A DNA stretch of 64,000 bases from Amycolatopsis pretoriensis (GTDB lineage: Bacteria > Actinomycetota > Actinomycetes > Mycobacteriales > Pseudonocardiaceae), in contig NZ_FNUJ01000007.1 in the NCBI RefSeq assembly GCF_900107925.1, forward strand, positions 496,001 to 560,000. Direction: 5' to 3'. This document shows positions 22,031 to 40,858 of this stretch, piece by piece (position 1 is the stretch's first letter; every line of letters starts with the position of its first letter). The translations under genes and the position numbers were made by a program. The notes under the pieces were generated by a model that searched no databases, had not been told where the DNA came from, and worked only from the letters and a program-made list of their open reading frames with translations.

Positions 22031-22798
22031 TCAGTGCTGGATGCCCTCCGCGGCGGCCGCCGCGGCACCCACGATCCCGGCGTTGTTCTGGAGCGTCGCG
22101 ACCAGCACCGGAGTGCGGATGTCCAGCAGCGGCACCCATTTCTCGGCCTTCTTGCTGACCCCGCCGCCGACGATGAACAGATCGGGCCAGATCAGGTTTT
22201 CGAGCACGGTCAGATAACGGTGCACGCGCTTGGCCCATTCGGGGTAGGAGAGCCCCTCGTTGTCCTTCACGGAAGCGGCCGCGCGCTTCTCCGCGTCGTG
22301 CCCGTCGATCTCCAGGTGGCCGAACTCGGTGTTCGGGACGAGCTTGCCGTCCTGGAACACCGCGCTGCCGATCCCGGTGCCGAAGGTCAGCAGCGCGGTG
22401 ACGCCCTTGCGCGCGACCGGGTCGCCGAAGCGGATCTCGGCCATGCCCGCGGCGTCGGCGTCGTTGAGCATCGCGATCTGGTCGACGCCGCGGCCGAGCC
22501 GCTTGGCGAACAGGGCGTCGGCGTCGGTGCCGATCCACTGCTTGTCGATGTTGGCCGCGGTGTGCGCGACGCCCTTCTTGACGACCGCGGGGAGCGTCAC
22601 GCCGACCGGGCCGTCCCAGCCCGCCTGCGTGACGATGTCGTGCACGACGTCCGCCACCGCCGACGGGGTGGACGGCTTCGGCGTCTCGATCCGGATCCGG
22701 TCGCCGATGAGCTGGCCCTTCTCCAGGTCGACCAAGGCACCCTTGATCCCGCTGCCGCCGATGTCGATGCCGAAACCTCGGCGGGTCGCCTCCACCAC
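22031..22798 (-). CDS. ppgK: Polyphosphate/ATP-dependent glucokinase
   Basis: ROK-family kinase phosphorylating glucose to glucose-6-phosphate, with polyphosphate as the preferred donor in actinobacteria. GFGIDIGGSGIKGALVD is the phosphate-1 motif. LNDADAAGMAE holds the catalytic Asp, LTFGTGIGSAV is phosphate-2, and FGHLEIDG and VGGGVSKKAEKW follow. GTG at 22798 (255 residues) is chosen because AGAAGGGA lies 8 nt upstream; GTG at 22819 would add seven residues. It is divergent from suhB and next to sigA as in M. tuberculosis. It could phosphorylate glucose released by the neighbouring glucan/trehalose enzymes. Confidence 0.94.
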   Translation of the reverse strand: MVEATRRGFGIDIGGSGIKGALVDLEKGQLIGDRIRIETPKPSTPSAVADVVHDIVTQAGWDGPVGVTLPAVVKKGVAHTAANIDKQWIGTDADALFAKRLGRGVDQIAMLNDADAAGMAEIRFGDPVARKGVTALLTFGTGIGSAVFQDGKLVPNTEFGHLEIDGHDAEKRAAASVKDNEGLSYPEWAKRVHRYLTVLENLIWPDLFIVGGGVSKKAEKWVPLLDIRTPVLVATLQNNAGIVGAAAAAAEGIQH

Positions 22799-22862
22799 GG
22801 ACGTGGTCCCTTCTCGCACGATTCAGAAGCCTGCCTCGGAGACTTTAACCGGATGTGGTGAC

Positions 22863-23681
22863 ATGTCGGACGTGGGAGTTGACGAGTCGTTGCTGAAAAG
22901 CGTCGCGGTGCAGGTCGCGACGGACGCCGCCGAGCTGGTCCGCGAGGCCTGGGAGGGCATGGCGGCCGGCCGGTCAGTGGCTGTGGGCACCAAGTCCGCG
23001 GACACCGACGTGGTGACCGCGGTGGACCACGAGTCCGAGCGGCTCGTGCGGGACCGGCTGGCCGCGCTGCGGCCGGGGGAGCCGGTGCTGGGCGAGGAGG
23101 GCGGCGGGACCGCGGGCGACGGCGTGACCTGGGTCGTCGACCCGATCGACGGGACGGTCAACTTCCTCTACGGCCTGCCGTGGTTCGCGGTGTCGGTGGC
23201 GGCGCAGATCGCCGGCGAGTCGGTGGCGGGCGCGGTGGTGGAGCCGGCGAGCGGCCGCGTCTGGTCGGCGGCTCGCGGGCAGGGCGCGTTCCTGGACGGC
23301 CGCCGGCTGGCGGTGTCGGCACCGTCGCGGCTGGAGCTGACGTTGGTCGGAACCGGTTTCGCGTATTCGGCCGAGCGCCGGACGCGCCAGTCGCGCTTCG
23401 CGGCCTCGCTGCTCGGGCAGGTGCGGGACATCCGCCGCAACGGCGCGGCATCGCTGGACCTGTGCGCGGTGGCGGCGGGCTGGCTCGACGCGTACGTGGA
23501 GCACGGGCTGCACCGGTGGGACTGGGCGGCGGGGGCGCTGATCGCGGCGGAGGCGGGCGCGGAGGTGCTGCTGCCGGGATCGGCCCCGGAGCTGGGCACG
23601 GACGCGACATATGCGGCGGCGCCTTCGGTCGCGGAGCCGCTGCGGAAGGTGCTGGCGGACTGCGGCGCCGCGGAGGTCTGA
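22863..23681 (+). CDS. suhB: Inositol-1-monophosphatase family protein
   Basis: Mg-dependent sugar/inositol phosphatase of 272 residues. It has the metal site GEEGG (Glu about residue 80), the signature VVDPIDGTVNFLYGLPWFAV (about 97-116) and the C-terminal RWDWAAGALIAAEAGA motif with the third metal Asp. ATG at 22863 follows GGATGTGG. It corresponds in position to suhB of M. tuberculosis (Rv2701c), which lies between ppgK and cei. Likely substrates are inositol-1-phosphate, in the route to inositol and mycothiol, or another sugar phosphate. Confidence 0.92.
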   Translation: MSDVGVDESLLKSVAVQVATDAAELVREAWEGMAAGRSVAVGTKSADTDVVTAVDHESERLVRDRLAALRPGEPVLGEEGGGTAGDGVTWVVDPIDGTVNFLYGLPWFAVSVAAQIAGESVAGAVVEPASGRVWSAARGQGAFLDGRRLAVSAPSRLELTLVGTGFAYSAERRTRQSRFAASLLGQVRDIRRNGAASLDLCAVAAGWLDAYVEHGLHRWDWAAGALIAAEAGAEVLLPGSAPELGTDATYAAAPSVAEPLRKVLADCGAAEV

Positions 23682-23707
23682 GCGGGCCGCGTGGTCCCTG
23701 GTGGTGT

Positions 23708-23756
23708 CGCGAATGGCGCATTGGGGACCTCCGGCGCCGCGTATGAGTCATTCGCG
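23708..23756. repeat. Intergenic imperfect palindrome (CGAATGGC-type repeat)
   Basis: CGCGAATG at 23708-23715 is mirrored by CATTCGCG at 23749-23756, with further partial pairing inside. The wording resembles the hairpins at 27213-27271 and 29311-29364 (GTGAATGGC / TTCAC), suggesting one REP-like family of gene-end elements in this genome. Confidence 0.5.
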
Positions 23757-23793
23757 GCGCGGGGCGGCGGTCTGCGCGGGCCGTCGGGCGGCC

Positions 23794-23850
23794 GAAACTG
23801 TCGGTGCCCACCGGTAACGTGAAAACCGGGGGATCCCCCACGCGCGCGGG
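23794..23850 (+). repeat. Dispersed element copy A: PafBC-type promoter motif plus G5/C5 hairpin
   Basis: TGTCGGTG (23799-23806), an 8-bp spacer and TAACGT (23815-23820) fit the mycobacterial RecA-independent DNA-damage promoter consensus (TTGTCRGTG-N8-TAnnnT). It is followed by GAAAACC, a G5-AT-C5 palindrome (23828-23839) and a CGCGCGCGGG tail. Near-identical copies occur at 29225-29275 and 39358-39414. Here it sits between convergent suhB and the Cei-like gene and points into the 3' end of the latter. Confidence 0.75.
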
Positions 23851-23882: not shown

Positions 23883-24566
23883 TCAGCAGGCGACGTCGCG
23901 GGCCGAGGCCAGCAGCGTCTGGTCGATGACCGGGGCCTGCGCCCCCGCGGACTGCTCGTTCGACCCGCCGCCCTGGTGGGCCTTGGACCAGTCGGCCAGC
24001 TGGGTCAGGATCTGGCGGGCCTCCGCGCGCGGCCGGATGTCGCCGAACAGCGTGCCCGTCACCAGGTCCACGCTCGCGTCCTTGCGGTTGTCCTGGACCA
24101 GCTCGGCGCACGGCACGACCAGGCTGAGCGTCCGGGCCGCCGTGATGCCGTTCTCGCCGTAGCGGATCTGGCCGCGGCACTTGGCCACGCGGCCCTCGTA
24201 CGCCGGGTCGTTGGCCGGTTCACCCACTCCGGTGAACCCCAGCTCCTTGAGCGCGGTGCTGGCGATACCGCCCTGGCCGCGCGTGCTGGACGCGTTGAGC
24301 ACCTTCACCGCGACCTTGTCCGGCGGCACCGGCGCGCGGTCGTCGAGAGCGTTGTGGGGCATCGAACTGAACGTGACCCCCGGCGGCGGGCTCGCGGCCG
24401 GGTCGCACTTCACGGCCTCGTCTACGTCGCCTTTGCCGACGGCCGCGTTGATCCAGACGATGATCGCGCCGAGGGCCAGCACGCCGATGACGACCAGCGC
24501 CGGCAGCGGCTTGTGCTTGCGATACGGCCGCGTCCCACGGTCCCCGATGCCGTTCCCCGACGCCAC
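23883..24566 (-). CDS. cei: Envelope integrity protein Cei-like, LytR C-terminal domain
   Basis: 227-residue single-pass protein. A basic N-terminus precedes a TM helix (about 21-39), and the extracytoplasmic part carries a LytR_C-type domain (VAVKVLNASSTRGQGGIAST, about 86-105). Four cysteines outside the membrane (about residue 54 and later, the last at the very C-terminus) could form two disulphides. GTG at 24566 has GGGACGGG upstream. Its place between suhB and the DUF4193 gene matches cei (Rv2700), which is needed for envelope integrity in M. tuberculosis. Confidence 0.85.
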   Translation of the reverse strand: MASGNGIGDRGTRPYRKHKPLPALVVIGVLALGAIIVWINAAVGKGDVDEAVKCDPAASPPPGVTFSSMPHNALDDRAPVPPDKVAVKVLNASSTRGQGGIASTALKELGFTGVGEPANDPAYEGRVAKCRGQIRYGENGITAARTLSLVVPCAELVQDNRKDASVDLVTGTLFGDIRPRAEARQILTQLADWSKAHQGGGSNEQSAGAQAPVIDQTLLASARDVAC

Positions 24567-28471: not shown

Positions 28472-29194
28472 GTGACTGAACCCGCCTCGAGCGAGAAGAA
28501 GACCGACTCCGGCGACGAGCCGCAGCCGACCCTCCTGGAGCAGATGGGCGGCGTGTCCGGCCTGATCTACTCCTCGGTGCCGGTGATCGTCTTCGTGCTG
28601 GCGAACGCCTTCTTCGGGCTGACCGCCGCCATCTGGACGTCGGTGGGCAGCGCGGTGGCGATCACCGTGCTGCGGGTGGTCCGCAAGGAGCCCCTGCAGC
28701 CGGCGATCTCCGGGTTCTTCGGCGTCGCGATCGCGGCGTTCATCGCCTACCGGACGGGGTCGGCGAAGGGGTTCTTCCTCTTCGGGATCTACGCGAGCCT
28801 GGTCTACTGCGGCATCTTCGTGCTGTCCGTGGTCGTCCGGTGGCCGATCGCGGGCGTGGTGTGGAACGTGCTCAACGGCACCGGGCAGGCGTGGCGCAAG
28901 GACAAGCCGTCCCGCTACGGCTACGACATCGCGACGCTGGCGCTGGCCCTGGTGTTCGCCGCCCGGTTCGTCGTGCAGCGGTGGCTCTACCAGGAGGACT
29001 ACACCGGCTGGCTGGCCTTCGCGAAGATCGCGATGGGGTACCCGCTGTACGCGCTGGGCCTGTTGGTCGTGGTGTGGGCGGTGCGCCGGTCGGACAAGCG
29101 GCTGAAGGCGCAGGCGGAGGACGAGCCGAAGCCGGAGACCGACGCGGAGATCGAAGCCCGGCTGCGCGAGAAGTACGCGGCCCCCGAGGCCTGA
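28472..29194 (+). CDS. DUF3159 integral membrane protein
   Basis: 240 residues with about six TM helices, beginning LLEQMGGVSGLIYSSVPVIV, and a charged C-terminal tail. It is the positional orthologue of Rv2693c. GTG start at 28472, 9 bp after the OB-fold gene, so the two are probably co-transcribed. Function unknown. Confidence 0.88.
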   Translation: MTEPASSEKKTDSGDEPQPTLLEQMGGVSGLIYSSVPVIVFVLANAFFGLTAAIWTSVGSAVAITVLRVVRKEPLQPAISGFFGVAIAAFIAYRTGSAKGFFLFGIYASLVYCGIFVLSVVVRWPIAGVVWNVLNGTGQAWRKDKPSRYGYDIATLALALVFAARFVVQRWLYQEDYTGWLAFAKIAMGYPLYALGLLVVVWAVRRSDKRLKAQAEDEPKPETDAEIEARLREKYAAPEA

Positions 29195-29224: not shown

Positions 29225-29275
29225 GCGCGTAGGGGGACCCCCGGTTTTCACGCTACCGGGAGGCACCGACAGTTT
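29225..29275 (-). repeat. Dispersed element copy B: PafBC-type promoter motif plus G5/C5 hairpin
   Basis: Read on the minus strand: TGTCGGTG (29271-29264), 8-bp spacer, TAGCGT (29255-29250), then GAAAACC, a G5-T-C5 palindrome and ACGCGCGCGG. Same organisation as the copy at 23794, inverted. It lies between convergent genes and points into the 3' end of the DUF3159 gene, 30 bp away. Confidence 0.75.
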
Positions 29276-29310
29276 GCGCGCGCGGATCTCAGGCCGGGCT
29301 GCTGCGACGC

Positions 29311-29364
29311 CGTGAACGACTCTTTCACCTCGTCCGACGACATGAACGACCCTTTCATGTCGTC
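29311..29364. repeat. Pair of short hairpins (GTGAACGAC/ATGAACGAC type)
   Basis: GTGAA/TTCAC pairing at 29311-29327 is followed by an 11-bp perfect stem (29336-29346 with 29354-29364, 7-nt loop). Both carry a CGAC-C-CT loop, so the second looks like a copy of the first. They sit in the 233-bp gap between convergent genes. Confidence 0.55.
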
Positions 29365-29386
29365 TCACCGGCACCGGACCACGCGA

Positions 29387-29427: not shown

Positions 29428-30084
29428 TCAGTACCCCAAAGCCGTCCGGATCTCCGGCTCGACATCCGCGGTGGCGACGAACAGCAACTCGTCCCCCGGC
29501 TCCAGCGGGTCCTCCGGCTGCGGCACGATCACCCGGTCACCCCGCAGGATCGTCACCAAAGCGGCATCCCGCGGCAACGTCAGATCACTCACCGGCTTCC
29601 CGGCCAGCGGGGTCTCCGCCGGCAACGTCAGCTCGACGAGGTTCGCGTTGCTCTGCCGGAACGTCATCAGCCGCACCAGGTCGCCGACGCTGACCGCCTC
29701 CTCGACCATCGCCGCGAGCATCCGCGGGGTCGAGACCGCCACGTCGACGCCCCACGCGTCGGTGAACAGCCACTCGTTCGCCGGGTTGTTCACCCGGGCC
29801 ACCACGCGCCGGACCGCGAACTCCGTCTTCGCGAGCAGCGAGACGACCAGGTTCGCCTTGTCGTCGCCCGTCGCGGCGATCACGACGTCGCACTGCTCGA
29901 TCCCGGACTCCTCCAGGATCGACACCTCGCACGCGTCGCCGAGCACCCAGTCGGCCTGCTCGACCGTCTGCGGCTCGAACTGGTCGGCCTCCCGCTCGAT
30001 CAGCATCACCTGGTGGCGCCCGTCGATGAGCTCGTTGGCGATGGAACGGCCGACCGCACCCGCGCCCGCAATCGCGACCCGCAT
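29428..30084 (-). CDS. ceoC: TrkA-type potassium channel regulatory protein
   Basis: 218-residue RCK protein. N-terminal Rossmann domain with MRVAIAGAGAVGRSIA (NAD-binding GxGxxG), and a C-terminal TrkA_C domain (LPAETPLAGKPVSDLTLP). It probably gates a Trk/Ktr potassium uptake system, but no membrane subunit lies in the window. It overlaps the upstream paralogue by one base (TGATG). The pair corresponds to ceoB/ceoC (Rv2691/Rv2692). Confidence 0.92.
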   Translation of the reverse strand: MRVAIAGAGAVGRSIANELIDGRHQVMLIEREADQFEPQTVEQADWVLGDACEVSILEESGIEQCDVVIAATGDDKANLVVSLLAKTEFAVRRVVARVNNPANEWLFTDAWGVDVAVSTPRMLAAMVEEAVSVGDLVRLMTFRQSNANLVELTLPAETPLAGKPVSDLTLPRDAALVTILRGDRVIVPQPEDPLEPGDELLFVATADVEPEIRTALGY

Positions 30085-34065: not shown

Positions 34066-34088
34066 TTGTCGGTGGTGGTCGTCACACT
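34066..34088 (+). promoter_or_regulatory. Candidate DNA-damage (PafBC/RecA-NDp) promoter, leaderless
   Basis: TTGTCGGTG (34066-34074), 8-bp spacer, CACACT (34083-34088); only the first base of the -10 departs from the TAnnnT consensus. The -10 ends 6 nt before the ATG at 34095, so transcription would begin at or next to the start codon. Confidence 0.55.
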
Positions 34089-34094
34089 GCTCGC

Positions 34095-34652
34095 ATGACT
34101 CCACTCGACGAATTCGACCTGGCGGCTTCGACGGTGACCGGCTTGGTTTCGGGCACCTCGGCTTGGGACGCGCCCACGGCGTGCGCGGATTGGAACGTGC
34201 GCGCGGTGGTGAACCACTTGGCGCACGGCAACGCGAAAGTGGCGTTCTGGGCGGGGATGGGCCCACCCGCGCCGGAGGGTGACTACCTGGGTCCCTCGCC
34301 GGTCGAGGCGTTCACGGCGTCGGTGGCGGCGGCCCGGTCGGTGCTGGCGTCGCCCGGGCTGTTCGAGCGGACGGTGACGACTCCGCTCGGCGAGGTGCCC
34401 GGGGTGTTCCTGGTGCACATGCGCGTGAACGAGTACGTGGTGCACGGCTGGGACATCGCCGACGCCACGGGTGCTTCGACGGACCTGCTGCCGGAGCTGG
34501 CGGCGCGGGCACTGGAGCAGTGGCGGGCACGGTTCGGGTCGGCGCCGCGGCAGCCGGGCGGGCCGTTCGGGCCGGAGGTCGACGCTCCGGAGGGCGCGAC
34601 GGCGGCGGACCGGCTGGCGGCGTTCCTCGGCCGGAAGGCGGTGAGCGGCTAG
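34095..34652 (+). CDS. TIGR03086-family (DinB/maleylpyruvate-isomerase-like) metal-binding protein
   Basis: 185 residues with the four-helix-bundle pattern of mycothiol-dependent enzymes. CADWNVRAVVNHLAHGN (about 35-51) carries the first metal His. MRVNEYVVHGWDIADATG (about 110-127) gives the second His and Asp. This family groups with mycothiol-dependent maleylpyruvate isomerase and DinB proteins, and individual substrates are mostly unknown. No ribosome site is seen; a PafBC-like promoter directly upstream suggests a leaderless, DNA-damage-responsive message. Confidence 0.85.
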   Translation: MTPLDEFDLAASTVTGLVSGTSAWDAPTACADWNVRAVVNHLAHGNAKVAFWAGMGPPAPEGDYLGPSPVEAFTASVAAARSVLASPGLFERTVTTPLGEVPGVFLVHMRVNEYVVHGWDIADATGASTDLLPELAARALEQWRARFGSAPRQPGGPFGPEVDAPEGATAADRLAAFLGRKAVSG

Positions 34653-37386: not shown

Positions 37387-39300
37387 GTGACGTTGCTGGA
37401 GTCCGTGAACGGACCGGCGGACCTGAAGCGCATGAGTGTCGAGGACCTCGGCGAACTGGCTGCCGAGATCCGGGACTTCCTCGTCGACAAGGTCCGCCGC
37501 GCCGGCGGGCACCTGGGGCCCAACCTCGGCGTCGTCGAGCTGACGCTGGCGCTGCACCGCGTGTTCGACTCGCCGCGCGACGCGATCGTCTGGGACGTCG
37601 GGCACCAGGCCTACGTGCACAAGATCGTCACCGGCCGCGTGGACGGCTTCGACAAGCTGCGTCAGACCGGCGGTGTCACCGGTTACCCGTCGCGCGCGGA
37701 GAGTGACCACGACTGGGTCGAAAGCAGCCACGCCTCCTCCGGACTGTCCTATGTGGACGGCCTGGCGAAAGCGTTCGCCCTGGAGGGCGGCGAGCGGCAC
37801 GCGATCGCCGTCGTCGGCGACGGCGCGCTCACCGGCGGCATGTGCTGGGAAGCGCTCAACAACATCGCCGCGCACCGCGAGCGCCCGGTCGTCATCGTCA
37901 TCAACGACAACGGCCGCTCGTACTCGCCGACCATCGGCGGCCTCGCCGACCACCTCGCCGCGCTGCGCCTCCAGCCGGGCTATGAGCGCCTGCTCGACGG
38001 CGGCCGCGAGATCCTCAAGCACACCCCGGTCGTCGGCAAGCCGATCTACGCCGCGCTGCACGCCGCGAAGGCCGGACTGAAGGACGCCCTGAGCCCGCAG
38101 GCGATGTTCTCCGACCTCGGCCTGAAGTACCTCGGCCCGGTCGACGGCCACGACCAGGTCGCGCTGGAGAAGGCCCTGCAGAGCGCGAAGGCGTTCGGCG
38201 GCGCGGTGATCGTGCACGTGGTGACCGAAAAGGGTCACGGCTACGCGCCCGCGGTCAACAACCAGCACGACCAGATGCACCAGACCGACCCGATCGACCC
38301 CGAGACCGGCCTGCCGCCGGTGAAGGGCCCGAGCTGGACCGGCGTGTTCGGCGACGAGCTGGCGAAGATCGGCGCCGAGCGCGAGGACGTCGTCGCGATC
38401 ACGGCGGCGATGCTGCGGTCCACCGGGCTCGACAAGTTCGCCGAGGCGTTCCCGGACCGCTGGTACGACGTCGGGATCGCCGAGCAGCACGCGGTCACCT
38501 CGGCCGCCGGGCTCGCGATGGGTGGGCTGCACCCGGTCGTGGCGATCTACTCGACGTTCCTCAACCGCGCGTTCGACCAGGTGCTGATGGACGTCGCACT
38601 GCACCGCCAGCCGGTGACGCTGGTGCTGGACCGGGCCGGGATCACCGGGCCGGACGGGCCCAGCCACCACGGGATGTGGGACCTGTCGCTGCTCGGGATG
38701 GTGCCCGGGATGCGCGTCGCTGCTCCGCGTGACCCGGCGACGCTGCGGGAGGAACTGCGGGAGGCGGTCGCCGTCTCCGATGGGCCGACCGCGCTGCGGT
38801 TCTCGAAGGGCAAGGTCGGCGCGGATGTGACGGCGGTGGAGCGGATCGGCACGGTCGATGTGCTGCGTCGCCCGACCGAGGGCGCGGATGTCTTGCTGGT
38901 GACGGTCGGTCCGTTCGCGACGCTCGGGTTGGCGACCGCGGACCGGCTGGCCGATCAGGGGATCGGCGTGACCGTGGTGGACCCGCGGTGGGTGCTGCCC
39001 GTTCCGGCCGAGCTGGTCGCGTTGGCTTCGCAGCACAAGCTCGTGGTGACCGTCGAGGACAGCGGCCGGCACGGCGGTTTCGGGTCGGCGCTGGCCGCGA
39101 TGTTCCGGGACGCCGAGTGCGACGTGCCGTTGCGGGATCTGGCGGTGCCGCAGGCGTTCCACGACCTGGGCAGCCGCGACGAGGTGCTCGGGCGGATCGG
39201 CTTGACGGCCCAGGACGTGGCTCGTCGCGTGACCGAGTGGGCCGCCGGCCGGCTGGGCTCGGAAGAGCAGCCGGCGAAGAAGGACGCCAACCGCGGCTGA
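37387..39300 (+). CDS. dxs: 1-deoxy-D-xylulose-5-phosphate synthase
   Basis: TPP-dependent first enzyme of the MEP isoprenoid pathway, condensing pyruvate and glyceraldehyde-3-phosphate. [16 protein letters not shown] and GHQAYVHK lie in the N-domain. The TPP site is [18 protein letters not shown] followed by [30 protein letters not shown] holds the catalytic Glu, and a transketolase C-domain follows. 637 residues from GTG at 37387, with AGGTGGAG upstream. It is the orthologue of dxs1 (Rv2682c), closing the mycobacterial synteny block. A TAGACT -10-like hexamer at 37339-37344 may belong to its promoter. Confidence 0.96.
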
Positions 39301-39357: not shown

Positions 39358-39414
39358 CCGAAACTGTCGGTGCCCACCGGTAGAGTGGAAAACGGGGGGC
39401 GCCCCCGCGCGCGG
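39358..39414 (+). repeat. Dispersed element copy C: PafBC-type promoter motif plus G/C hairpin
   Basis: TGTCGGTG (39365-39372), 8-bp spacer identical to copy A, TAGAGT (39381-39386), then GGAAAAC, a GGGGGCGCCCCC-type palindrome and a CGCGCGCGGGG end. It lies directly behind the dxs terminator and points into the 3' end of the convergent NCS1 permease gene a few bases away. Confidence 0.75.
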
Positions 39415-39421
39415 GGTGAAG

Positions 39422-40858
39422 TCAGGCCCCGGCGTTGACCGGGAGGGGCACCGAAGCGAAGACCTCCGCGGGTTCCGGGAACAGCTTCACCAGCACCGGG
39501 TACGCCACCGCCGCCGTCGCCAGGGTCACCAGCAGGCTGATGTCCACACCGCCCGCGATGTCCCTCAGCGGGCCCGCGATCATCGGCGTGTTCGCGCACA
39601 GCAGGCCCAATGTCGTCGCCGGGATCCACGCCGCCATCGCTCGCCAGTTCACGCCTCGGGCGAACCAGTACCTCCCGCCGCGCCGGCCCTCGTTGAACAC
39701 CTGCAGGTCCGCCACGTCGTAGAACCCCCGGCGCTGGACGAAGCCGATCATCATGATCACCATCCACGGGCTCGTGCACAGCACGATCAGCGTCGCGAAC
39801 GCGTTGATGCTCGACACCATGTCCAGCACGAAATTGCCGATGAAGATGAACGCCACGCTCAGCGTTCCGATCAGCAGCGTCGCCTGGACCCGGGACAGGC
39901 GCGGGAAGATCGAGCTGAAGTCCAGGCCCGTGCCGTACAGCGACGTCGTTCCGGTCGACAGGCCGCCGATCAACGCCACGACGATCAGCGGGATCGCGTA
40001 CCACAGCGGGGAAATCGCCGTCAGGCCCGTGATGTAGTCGGCCGGGTTCGCGACCAGCGTGGCCGTCGCGATGCCGAACCCGAACGGCAGCAACGTCGCC
40101 ACCTGGGCCAGGAACGGCGCTGTCAGGAGAGAGCGCTTGCTGAACGAAGAAGGGATGTAGCGCGCCCAGTCGCCGAGGAACGCGCCGAACGAAATCGGGT
40201 TCGCCAGCGCCGTCAGCGCCGCCAGGGTGAACGTCGGCCAGAACGTGCCGAGTGCGTAGGTGCCCGTGCCGGCGTAGCCCGGGTCGAACGAGCCGCCGTA
40301 CGCCAGCACGCCCAGCAGCATGATCGCCGTGCCCAGGACCACCGCGATCCGGTTCACCAGCAGCATGAACCGGTAGCCGTAGATGCACACCACCAGCGTC
40401 GCGACCGCGATCACGCCGTACGCCACGCCGCGCAGCACCGCGCCGCCGTCGAAGCCGAACAGCCGCTGTGCCGCGCCGGCCACCGCGTCGCCGCTCACCC
40501 ACACCGAAATCGCGAAGAACGTGATCGCCGTCAGCAACGACAGGAACGAGCCGACGCACCGGCCGACCACGCCGAAGTGCGCTCCCGACGACACCGCGTT
40601 GTTCGTGCGCGTGCGTGGTCCGAACAACGCCATCGGCGCCAGGACCAGGCCGCCGACCACCACGCCGAGCGCGGTCGCCAGAGCCGCGTCCCGGAAGCTC
40701 AGCCCGTACGCGATCGGCAGCGTGCCCAGGATGATCGTCGCGAACGTGTTCGCGCCGCCGAACGCCATCCGGAACAGGTCGCGCGGGCGCGATGTCTGCT
40801 CCTCCGGCGGGATGGGCGCGATGCCGTTGTGCTCGACCTCCGTCACGCGCGCGCTCAT
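39422..40858 (-). CDS. NCS1-family nucleobase/cation symporter
   Basis: 478-residue permease of the cytosine/purine/uracil/thiamine/allantoin family with about 12 TM helices. Around residue 30 is the family motif region LFRMAFGGANTFATIILGTL, with GRTRTNNAVSS-like sequence after TM3. It is the last gene of the minus-strand catabolic operon, and its ATG overlaps the aldehyde dehydrogenase stop (ATGA). By context it may import the nitrogen compound degraded by the operon; NCS1 carriers for allantoin, purines and hydantoins are known. Confidence 0.9.
   Translation of the reverse strand: MSARVTEVEHNGIAPIPPEEQTSRPRDLFRMAFGGANTFATIILGTLPIAYGLSFRDAALATALGVVVGGLVLAPMALFGPRTRTNNAVSSGAHFGVVGRCVGSFLSLLTAITFFAISVWVSGDAVAGAAQRLFGFDGGAVLRGVAYGVIAVATLVVCIYGYRFMLLVNRIAVVLGTAIMLLGVLAYGGSFDPGYAGTGTYALGTFWPTFTLAALTALANPISFGAFLGDWARYIPSSFSKRSLLTAPFLAQVATLLPFGFGIATATLVANPADYITGLTAISPLWYAIPLIVVALIGGLSTGTTSLYGTGLDFSSIFPRLSRVQATLLIGTLSVAFIFIGNFVLDMVSSINAFATLIVLCTSPWMVIMMIGFVQRRGFYDVADLQVFNEGRRGGRYWFARGVNWRAMAAWIPATTLGLLCANTPMIAGPLRDIAGGVDISLLVTLATAAVAYPVLVKLFPEPAEVFASVPLPVNAGA

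Follow-up and report, generated by a model that had tools for sequence, protein, structure and literature searches.

What is a promoter motif of the DNA-damage response doing at the ends of genes, joined to a tiny hairpin? The question arises in a 64,000-nucleotide stretch of Amycolatopsis pretoriensis DNA (the window), in which three intergenic copies of one element, A, B and C, are found (Table 1). The copies share TGTCGGTG, an 8-nt spacer, TAnnnT, a 7-nt stretch with GAAAAC, a palindrome of the form G5-N1/2-C5 and a CGCGCGCGG tail. In copy A, the 7-nt stretch GAAAACC occupies the discriminator position and, on the minus strand, forms the T-tract of the hairpin. The original prediction had described three such copies, placed them between convergent genes and pointed copy A at a Cei-like envelope gene. 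Re-reading of the window found all three in place with every named part, our own gene calls put convergent genes around each of them (3/3), and the gene faced by copy A was identified as Cei (NCBIfam NF035953, 229 bits). The element is real and occurs well above chance. It is a new combination of known parts, and a literature search, with thin coverage of subscription journals, found no description of such an element.

Table 1. Positions of the three element copies, their parts and the neighbouring genes in the window.
Feature	Position	Strand	Basis or description
Copy A	23794..23850	+	Intergenic element in the window
Copy A promoter, PafBC/RecA-NDp-type, TGTCGGTG-N8-TAACGT (predicted)	23799..23820	+	Sequence match to consensus
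Copy A 7-nt stretch GAAAACC, from -10 to palindrome	23821..23827	+	Sequence; spacing statistics
Copy A perfect palindrome GGGGGATCCCCC at predicted transcript start	23828..23839	+	Analogy with leaderless class 1 genes
Copy A tail ACGCGCGCGGG, common to one subtype of copies	23840..23850	+	Sequence
cei (envelope integrity protein), 3' end faced by copy A	23883..24566	-	Own gene calls and NCBIfam
Convergent neighbour of copy A, start uncertain	22260..23681	+	Own gene calls
Copy B	29225-29275	- (inverted)	Intergenic element in the window
Copy B promoter TGTCGGTG-N8-TAGCGT (predicted)	29250..29271	-	Sequence
Copy B palindrome GGGGGTCCCCC, 7 nt past -10	29232..29242	-	Sequence
DUF3159 gene, 3' end faced by copy B	28472..29194	+	Gene calls and domain scan
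Convergent neighbour of copy B, TrkA-like by eye	29428..30084	-	Own gene calls
Copy C	39358-39414	+	Intergenic element in the window
Copy C promoter TGTCGGTG-N8-TAGAGT (predicted)	39365..39386	+	Sequence
Copy C palindrome GGGGGCGCCCCC	39395..39406	+	Sequence
Cytosine/purine permease gene, 3' end faced by copy C	39422..40858	-	Gene calls and domain scan
Convergent neighbour of copy C, dxs-like by eye	37387..39300	+	Own gene calls

Several other features were seen in the same window. At 34067-34088 (+), TGTCGGTG-N8-CACACT is one base off the motif and is followed 6 nt later by a start codon; judging by this arrangement, the gene at 34095-34652 is probably one more leaderless gene of the PafBC-type promoter class. 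Other short palindromic intergenic repeats, GCGAATGAnTCATTCGCG-like and ATGAACGACCCTTTCATG-like, are located at 23700-23770 and 29310-29370, and by eye these also occur in sister genomes. The site of copy B additionally contains a sequence that resembles, by eye, an ordinary bidirectional terminator.

The promoter part of the element is of a known type. The published consensus of RecA-independent promoters is given in the available text of PMC5656591 as tTGTCRgtg, 8 nt and TannnT. This RecA-NDp or PafBC-dependent promoter is the P1 type of mycobacteria, according to the accessible parts of four papers (PMC5656591, PMC8223512, PMC6789036, PMC11804915). As described in the available portion of PMC11804915, ssDNA activates PafBC, which associates with RNA polymerase at promoters of this type only. 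Within the window, TGTCRGTG-N8-TANNNT with at most one mismatch matched five times, against a shuffled mean of 0.25 and a largest shuffled count of 2. Across the 10.3-Mb genome, TGTCGGTG-N8-TANNNT was found 89 times and its reversed control once, and TGTCAGTG-N8-TANNNT had no sites. The flanks of all 89 sites were read, and the sites were divided into 54 of class 1 and 35 of class 2, the latter including the window copies. Class 2 was chosen by eye; a regular expression gave 34 of these sites, differing at locus L046.

Class 1 sites look like true promoters by position and gene content. A start codon lies 4-9 nt past the final T of TAnnnT in 32 of them, and at 6 or 7 nt in 29 of those 32; the remainder comprises 15 sites with a gene start within 144 nt and 7 with neither. 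A Pfam scan of 36 of the 47 class 1 genes identified 12 with roles in DNA repair or replication, namely those for IMS polymerase, UvrA, UvrB, UvrC, RadA, RecN, NAD-dependent ligase, a beta-clamp paralogue, a YoaA/DinG-like helicase, a RarA/MgsA-like ATPase, a DEDD exonuclease with GIY-YIG and a PD-(D/E)XK nuclease. The other 24 scanned genes were mixed and included one for a proteasomal ATPase. The same genome encodes PafB (WYL, WCX) and PafC (HTH_PafC, WYL, WCX), adjoining tatA and tatC; no NCBIfam family was assigned to either protein at E <= 1e-10. Thus, by content, the class 1 genes and the presence of PafB and PafC indicate that the motif is in use here as a PafBC-type damage promoter. 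The fit of copies A-C to the published consensus, as originally proposed, agrees with the occurrence of the same motif before leaderless DNA-repair genes of this organism. In addition, a sister promoter motif, TGTCGGAC-N8-TANNNT, occurs at 20 places in the genome (L276-L295; control 0), mostly just 5' of genes. Three of these are class 2 elements. For 16 of the 17 others a gene on the same strand starts no more than 124 nt away, and one of these genes is, by eye, dnaX-like. At one such place (L294) the TGTCGGAC promoter overlaps TTCGAA-type sites that by eye resemble a LexA box.

Class 2 elements are far more numerous than the three copies first reported. Promoter and palindrome searched as a single pattern gave 26 raw, partly overlapping, matches in the genome and none in the control, which confirmed the excess that had been expected of a whole-genome search. 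A search with the palindrome side only, GAAANCNGGGGN{0,7}CCCC, found 22 distinct places (control 1). By-eye inspection of the printed sequence showed a TGTCGG-like box in the expected position, 8 nt ahead of a TAnnnT, in 18 of the 22; the other four (L325, L326, L330, L331) had no such boxes. The boxes of those 18 were TGTCGGTG in 11, TGTCGGAC in 3, and CGTCGGTC, TGTCGGCG, TGTCGTAC and TGTCGGGT in one each. The genome thus holds at least 42 class 2 elements: the 35 described above, 3 with AC (TGTCGGAC) and 4 with other box variants.

The typical class 2 element is about 50 bases long and has the form CCGGAAAC-TGTCGGTG-NNNNCCGG-TAGCGT-GGAAAAC-GGGGG-palindrome. Its G-run starts 7 nt past the T of the -10 box in 29 of the 35 sites. 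The same register is kept by 29 of the 30 copies that lie close to cei and the DUF3159 gene in sister genomes, and by 48 of 49 from other genomes. Because leaderless class 1 genes mostly start 6-7 nt past this T, the RNA of a class 2 copy is predicted to start on the first base of the palindrome. By sequence, each class 2 copy joins a PafBC-type box pair to a palindrome placed at the start point predicted for this promoter class, and the earlier proposal of a transcript starting at the hairpin is supported as a prediction. From the boxes and their spacing we infer promoter activity of the class 2 copies. The hairpins fall into several subtypes: G5-CG-C5, G5-AT-C5, GGCCGGAGGCC and GGGGGCTGCTCAG. 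In the GGGGGCTGCTCAG subtype the hairpin includes the stop codon TGA of the facing frame; this is the case in several genomes, at about five protein ends that by eye look unrelated. Palindrome arms of at least 5 were present in 81% of copies and in 53% of shuffles. The first 34 nt of the predicted RNA folded no more stably than shuffles (mean z -0.29), and extra RNA stability was rejected as an explanation. A role as promoters of short leaderless genes was likewise rejected, since ATG or GTG at 4-9 nt was in place at one of the 35 sites (L046). At locus L097, three copies of the element lie 91 bp apart, and an apparent gene-end sequence is repeated between the copies.

The placement of the two classes relative to genes, which were called with our own codon-usage script that sometimes errs, is very different (Fisher p 1.4e-12). 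Of 54 class 1 sites, 24 are divergent, 18 codirectional and facing forward, 8 inside genes, 2 facing back and 2 convergent. Among the 35 class 2 sites, 21 are convergent, 8 codirectional and facing back, 4 codirectional and facing forward, 1 divergent and 1 inside a gene call, so that only five have a gene ahead. Class 2 copies thus sit at gene 3' ends, mostly facing them, and what had been noticed for the window copies holds genome-wide. A similar distribution was obtained for 50 copies of other genomes (hits over 18 bits in L106-L165, minus L114, L133, L153 and L164), with 28 convergent, 11 back, 4 forward, 3 divergent, 3 inside and 1 at an edge, and for 32 copies of the congeneric genome G249, with 20 convergent, 7 back, 3 forward and 2 at an edge. 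In a convergent gap an element points at a gene end whichever way it lies, so the evidence on direction comes from the codirectional cases only. Pooled over the three data sets, which contain orthologous sites and are not fully independent, 26 codirectional copies face back and 11 forward (p 0.02), and 69 copies are convergent and 4 divergent. In convergent pairs the elements were no closer to the gene that they would terminate (Wilcoxon p 0.73, 0.84 and 0.97), and a position bias toward the facing gene was rejected. Stop codons are often near the hairpin, without overall asymmetry in these pairs. No common theme was found among 20 facing genes scanned; a damage-repressed regulon of facing genes was rejected on this ground, and any effect of the element would be local.

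The exact promoter-plus-palindrome pattern was found in 19 of 200 sampled genomes of the family, in 10 of 46 genera, and the bare promoter motif in 80 of 80 genomes of the genus. A profile, R1, was built from 32 of the 35 class 2 sites, leaving out L046 and both L068 sites. It was run on the genus with stricter filters, which lose weak matches, and a few class 1 sites could be among those that it found. R1 gave 19-76 matches in the 28 genomes, A. pretoriensis included, in which Cei is at least 83% identical, a grouping that rests on Cei identity and not on a tree. Of the 52 other congeners, 51 had 0-9 matches and one, G249, had 44. From the profile hits over 24 bits, six class 1 loci were removed (L004, L045, L052, L063, L065, L099), which left 113. 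At the site of copy A, an element lies within 230 nt of cei in 17 of the 28 group genomes by eye, in one of them (L251) with its box changed, and is lacking in 11. At the site of copy B, the element was counted by eye in 9 of 13 named group loci; one has a hairpin remnant and three are without. No profile hit over 15 bits was found at the other 67 named loci of this site, a few of which contain masked bases. DUF3159 orthologues at 90-96% identity belong to Amycolatopsis, e.g. A. iheyensis, A. vastitatis and A. rifamycinica. Copies have thus been gained and lost at orthologous sites; different subtypes occur at the same orthologous site, and one subtype occurs at unrelated genes. Past the DUF3159 gene, several sister genomes (L169-L174, L233) contain runs of a TCACGCGAGATGCC-like unit.

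The same sister genomes inform on constraint. Thirty sister copies scoring over 24 bits were compared at the cei and DUF3159 sites. An intact TGTCGGTG is retained in 29 and TA..T in all 30, whereas agreement is 53-83% across the first four bases of the spacer and 70-80% at the first two free bases of the -10 box; as the search profile itself includes the boxes, part of this constancy comes from the search. The low-scoring copy at L251 has its box changed to TGTCAGCC. Near-constancy in the sister copies extends to the CCGG at the end of the spacer and to the G preceding the final T, neither of which the published consensus requires. The near-constancy of the boxes suggests that either the promoter function or a factor binding to them has been maintained.

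A second lineage is represented by G249, whose Cei is 63% identical. Reading of 42 of its 44 R1 matches gave 32 with two hairpins, 6 of a DUF222 type and 4 of class 1 or other sites. The long form with two hairpins (32, among L296-L342) keeps the boxes unchanged or with small changes. Its first palindrome is of the kind AGGGGCTCCCCT, and its second, around GTACGAACGGTCCGTTCGTAC, varies, one example being CGTACGAACGGTCCGTTCGTACG. The six DUF222-type matches (L164, L314, L315, L317, L334, L338) resemble the left-hand termini of units, about 1.4 kb long, that are repeated in this genome. In four units compared, homology extends from about the TGTCGG box to a few bases from the stop codon of the reading frame, and three unit proteins scanned were DUF222 with an HNH match. 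An origin of class 2 elements as left-end remnants of such units was rejected for A. pretoriensis, where none of six DUF222 loci has the boxes or GAAAAN-G5.

How is this element best explained? The reading preferred here, tentatively and at a little less than an even chance, is that a dispersed intergenic repeat, amplified in one Amycolatopsis group, may be a natural terminator/antisense-promoter module. A selfish repeat carrying a stress promoter is nearly as likely. Such a REP- or MITE-like repeat would be spread by a mobiliser and persist where it is least harmful, at gene 3' ends, and its boxes would be recognition sites of the mobiliser or a promoter helping the repeat, with no benefit to the host. 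The bimodal profile counts within one genus, presence and absence at the cei and DUF3159 sites, the exchange of subtypes at one site with one subtype at unrelated genes, and the lack of a theme among facing genes all agree with this reading. So do the two or three copies, mostly in the same orientation, in tandem or clustered at several sites (L044, L093, L097, L176), and the related left ends that precede the DUF222/HNH units of G249. However, no terminal inverted repeats (p 0.64) and no clear target-site duplication (p 0.095, with element ends only approximately placed) were found, and the six DUF222 matches of A. pretoriensis do not carry the element. Copy C had no match in phages or plasmids and one strict pattern had none in viral contigs, on which basis a phage or plasmid origin was rejected. 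Boxes that stay near-constant while neighbouring bases drift are also not predicted for a neutral repeat, although the search favours constancy. The small mobile repeat first suggested for these copies is therefore supported in part, by copy-number differences, linked subtypes, and gain and loss; the terminal repeats and a clear target duplication expected of it were not seen.

Three further explanations account for less of the evidence. Plain intrinsic terminators with incidental promoter-like boxes would explain the terminator-like shape of the opposite strand, where, read along the facing gene, the GC hairpin precedes GTTTTC, as well as the TGA inside one subtype of hairpin and the excess of codirectional copies facing back. 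They are very unlikely, as both boxes stand at the exact spacing in 18 of the 22 places found by palindrome (by-eye count) and elements of convergent pairs are not closer to the terminated gene. A terminator scan (stem of at least 5, loop of 3-8, at least 5 T in 8) also flagged none of the three window copies, which have 4 T in the 8 positions, one too few, and loops of 1-2. It is scarcely probable that the elements are decoy sites, at which a GC-rich start right after a damage promoter would hold or abort PafBC-RNA polymerase and so buffer the PafBC response. The 35 class 2 sites alongside 54 of class 1 in one genome, the palindrome at the predicted first transcribed bases and the mixed facing genes would suit such a role, but the orientation to gene 3' ends is left unexplained and 51 of 52 congeners outside the group manage with 0-9 profile matches. 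Most unlikely, too, are small RNA genes with a damage promoter. With its longer conserved part and second palindrome, the G249 form could give rise to a structured RNA of about 45-50 nt, but in A. pretoriensis information declines within about 10 nt 3' of the hairpin, and the 64-kb window had no match to an RNA family at the Rfam gathering score.

In the terminator/antisense-promoter module, damage would generate ssDNA, and PafBC-RNA polymerase would then fire the class 2 copies. Each resulting RNA would have a hairpin at its start and extend, as antisense, over the 3' end of the facing gene. Read in the opposite direction, the hairpin and GTTTTC might stop or slow RNA polymerase leaving the facing gene, right beside a back-facing promoter; this terminator half, one of the roles first suggested for the copies, is weakly suggested by the shape of the element. 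The negative terminator scan of the window copies and the placement in convergent pairs speak against it. Also against the module are the apparent ordinary terminator at the site of copy B and the genomes of the group in which an element is missing at site A (11 of 28) or site B (4 of 13, one with the hairpin remnant). In this module the A-rich stretch from -10 to palindrome would serve twice, as discriminator of the promoter and, for polymerase arriving from the gene, as T-tract of the hairpin. According to the accessible text of PMC6978322, E. coli RNA polymerase is retained on the DNA once it has finished at an intrinsic terminator and frequently initiates again in the reverse direction. 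By analogy, the shape of class 2 elements would suit such a reverse restart, gated by damage. An unlikely, more specific form of this would be a U-turn device, in which polymerase ending the facing gene at the hairpin is retained and ssDNA-activated PafBC restarts it in reverse, so that dozens of unrelated genes would yield damage-gated antisense RNAs with a 5'-terminal hairpin.

Among known systems, the RecA-NDp/PafBC promoter has the same boxes and spacing, and the same motif stands at the DNA-repair genes of this organism, which has PafB and PafC. Class 2 elements differ from it in usually having no gene behind them, in the palindrome at the predicted start, in mostly facing gene 3' ends, in their dozens of dispersed copies and in the CCGG before -10 beyond the consensus. 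Correia elements and MITEs with promoters are dispersed repeats having both promoter and terminator-like features; class 2 elements, in contrast, lack terminal inverted repeats and a clear target duplication. REP and GTAG- or CGTC-tagged palindromic repeats are similarly short, palindromic, intergenic, multi-copy and patchy between genomes, as far as the available parts of PMC3733652 and PMC12306157 describe them. Compared with that description, class 2 elements have their boxes in fixed register and number tens rather than hundreds, and GTAG is neither constant nor at the foot of the palindrome: where present, it ends about 10 nt before the palindrome, and GTAA, GATA and CTAG also occur.

Closest in arrangement are terminators with nearby antisense initiation (Harden et al., 2020; PMC6978322), where, in the available text, a promoter-like sequence also faces back at a gene-end hairpin. 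There the antisense -35 boxes differ from the sense ones, whereas class 2 boxes are strict, stress-type and in one repeated geometry. The accessible portion of the same paper reports antisense initiation near terminators in E. coli and B. subtilis, mentions synthetic terminator/antisense-promoter modules and calls the promoters involved not well conserved. A natural family with strict boxes, fixed register and dozens of copies, together with close relatives free of the element, offers a ready comparison on antisense initiation at terminators. The element may make damage-induced antisense RNA, or it may be a parasitic repeat. If transcribed, it would give the PafBC response a large non-coding arm; if parasitic, it would be a repeat that carries a stress promoter of its host.
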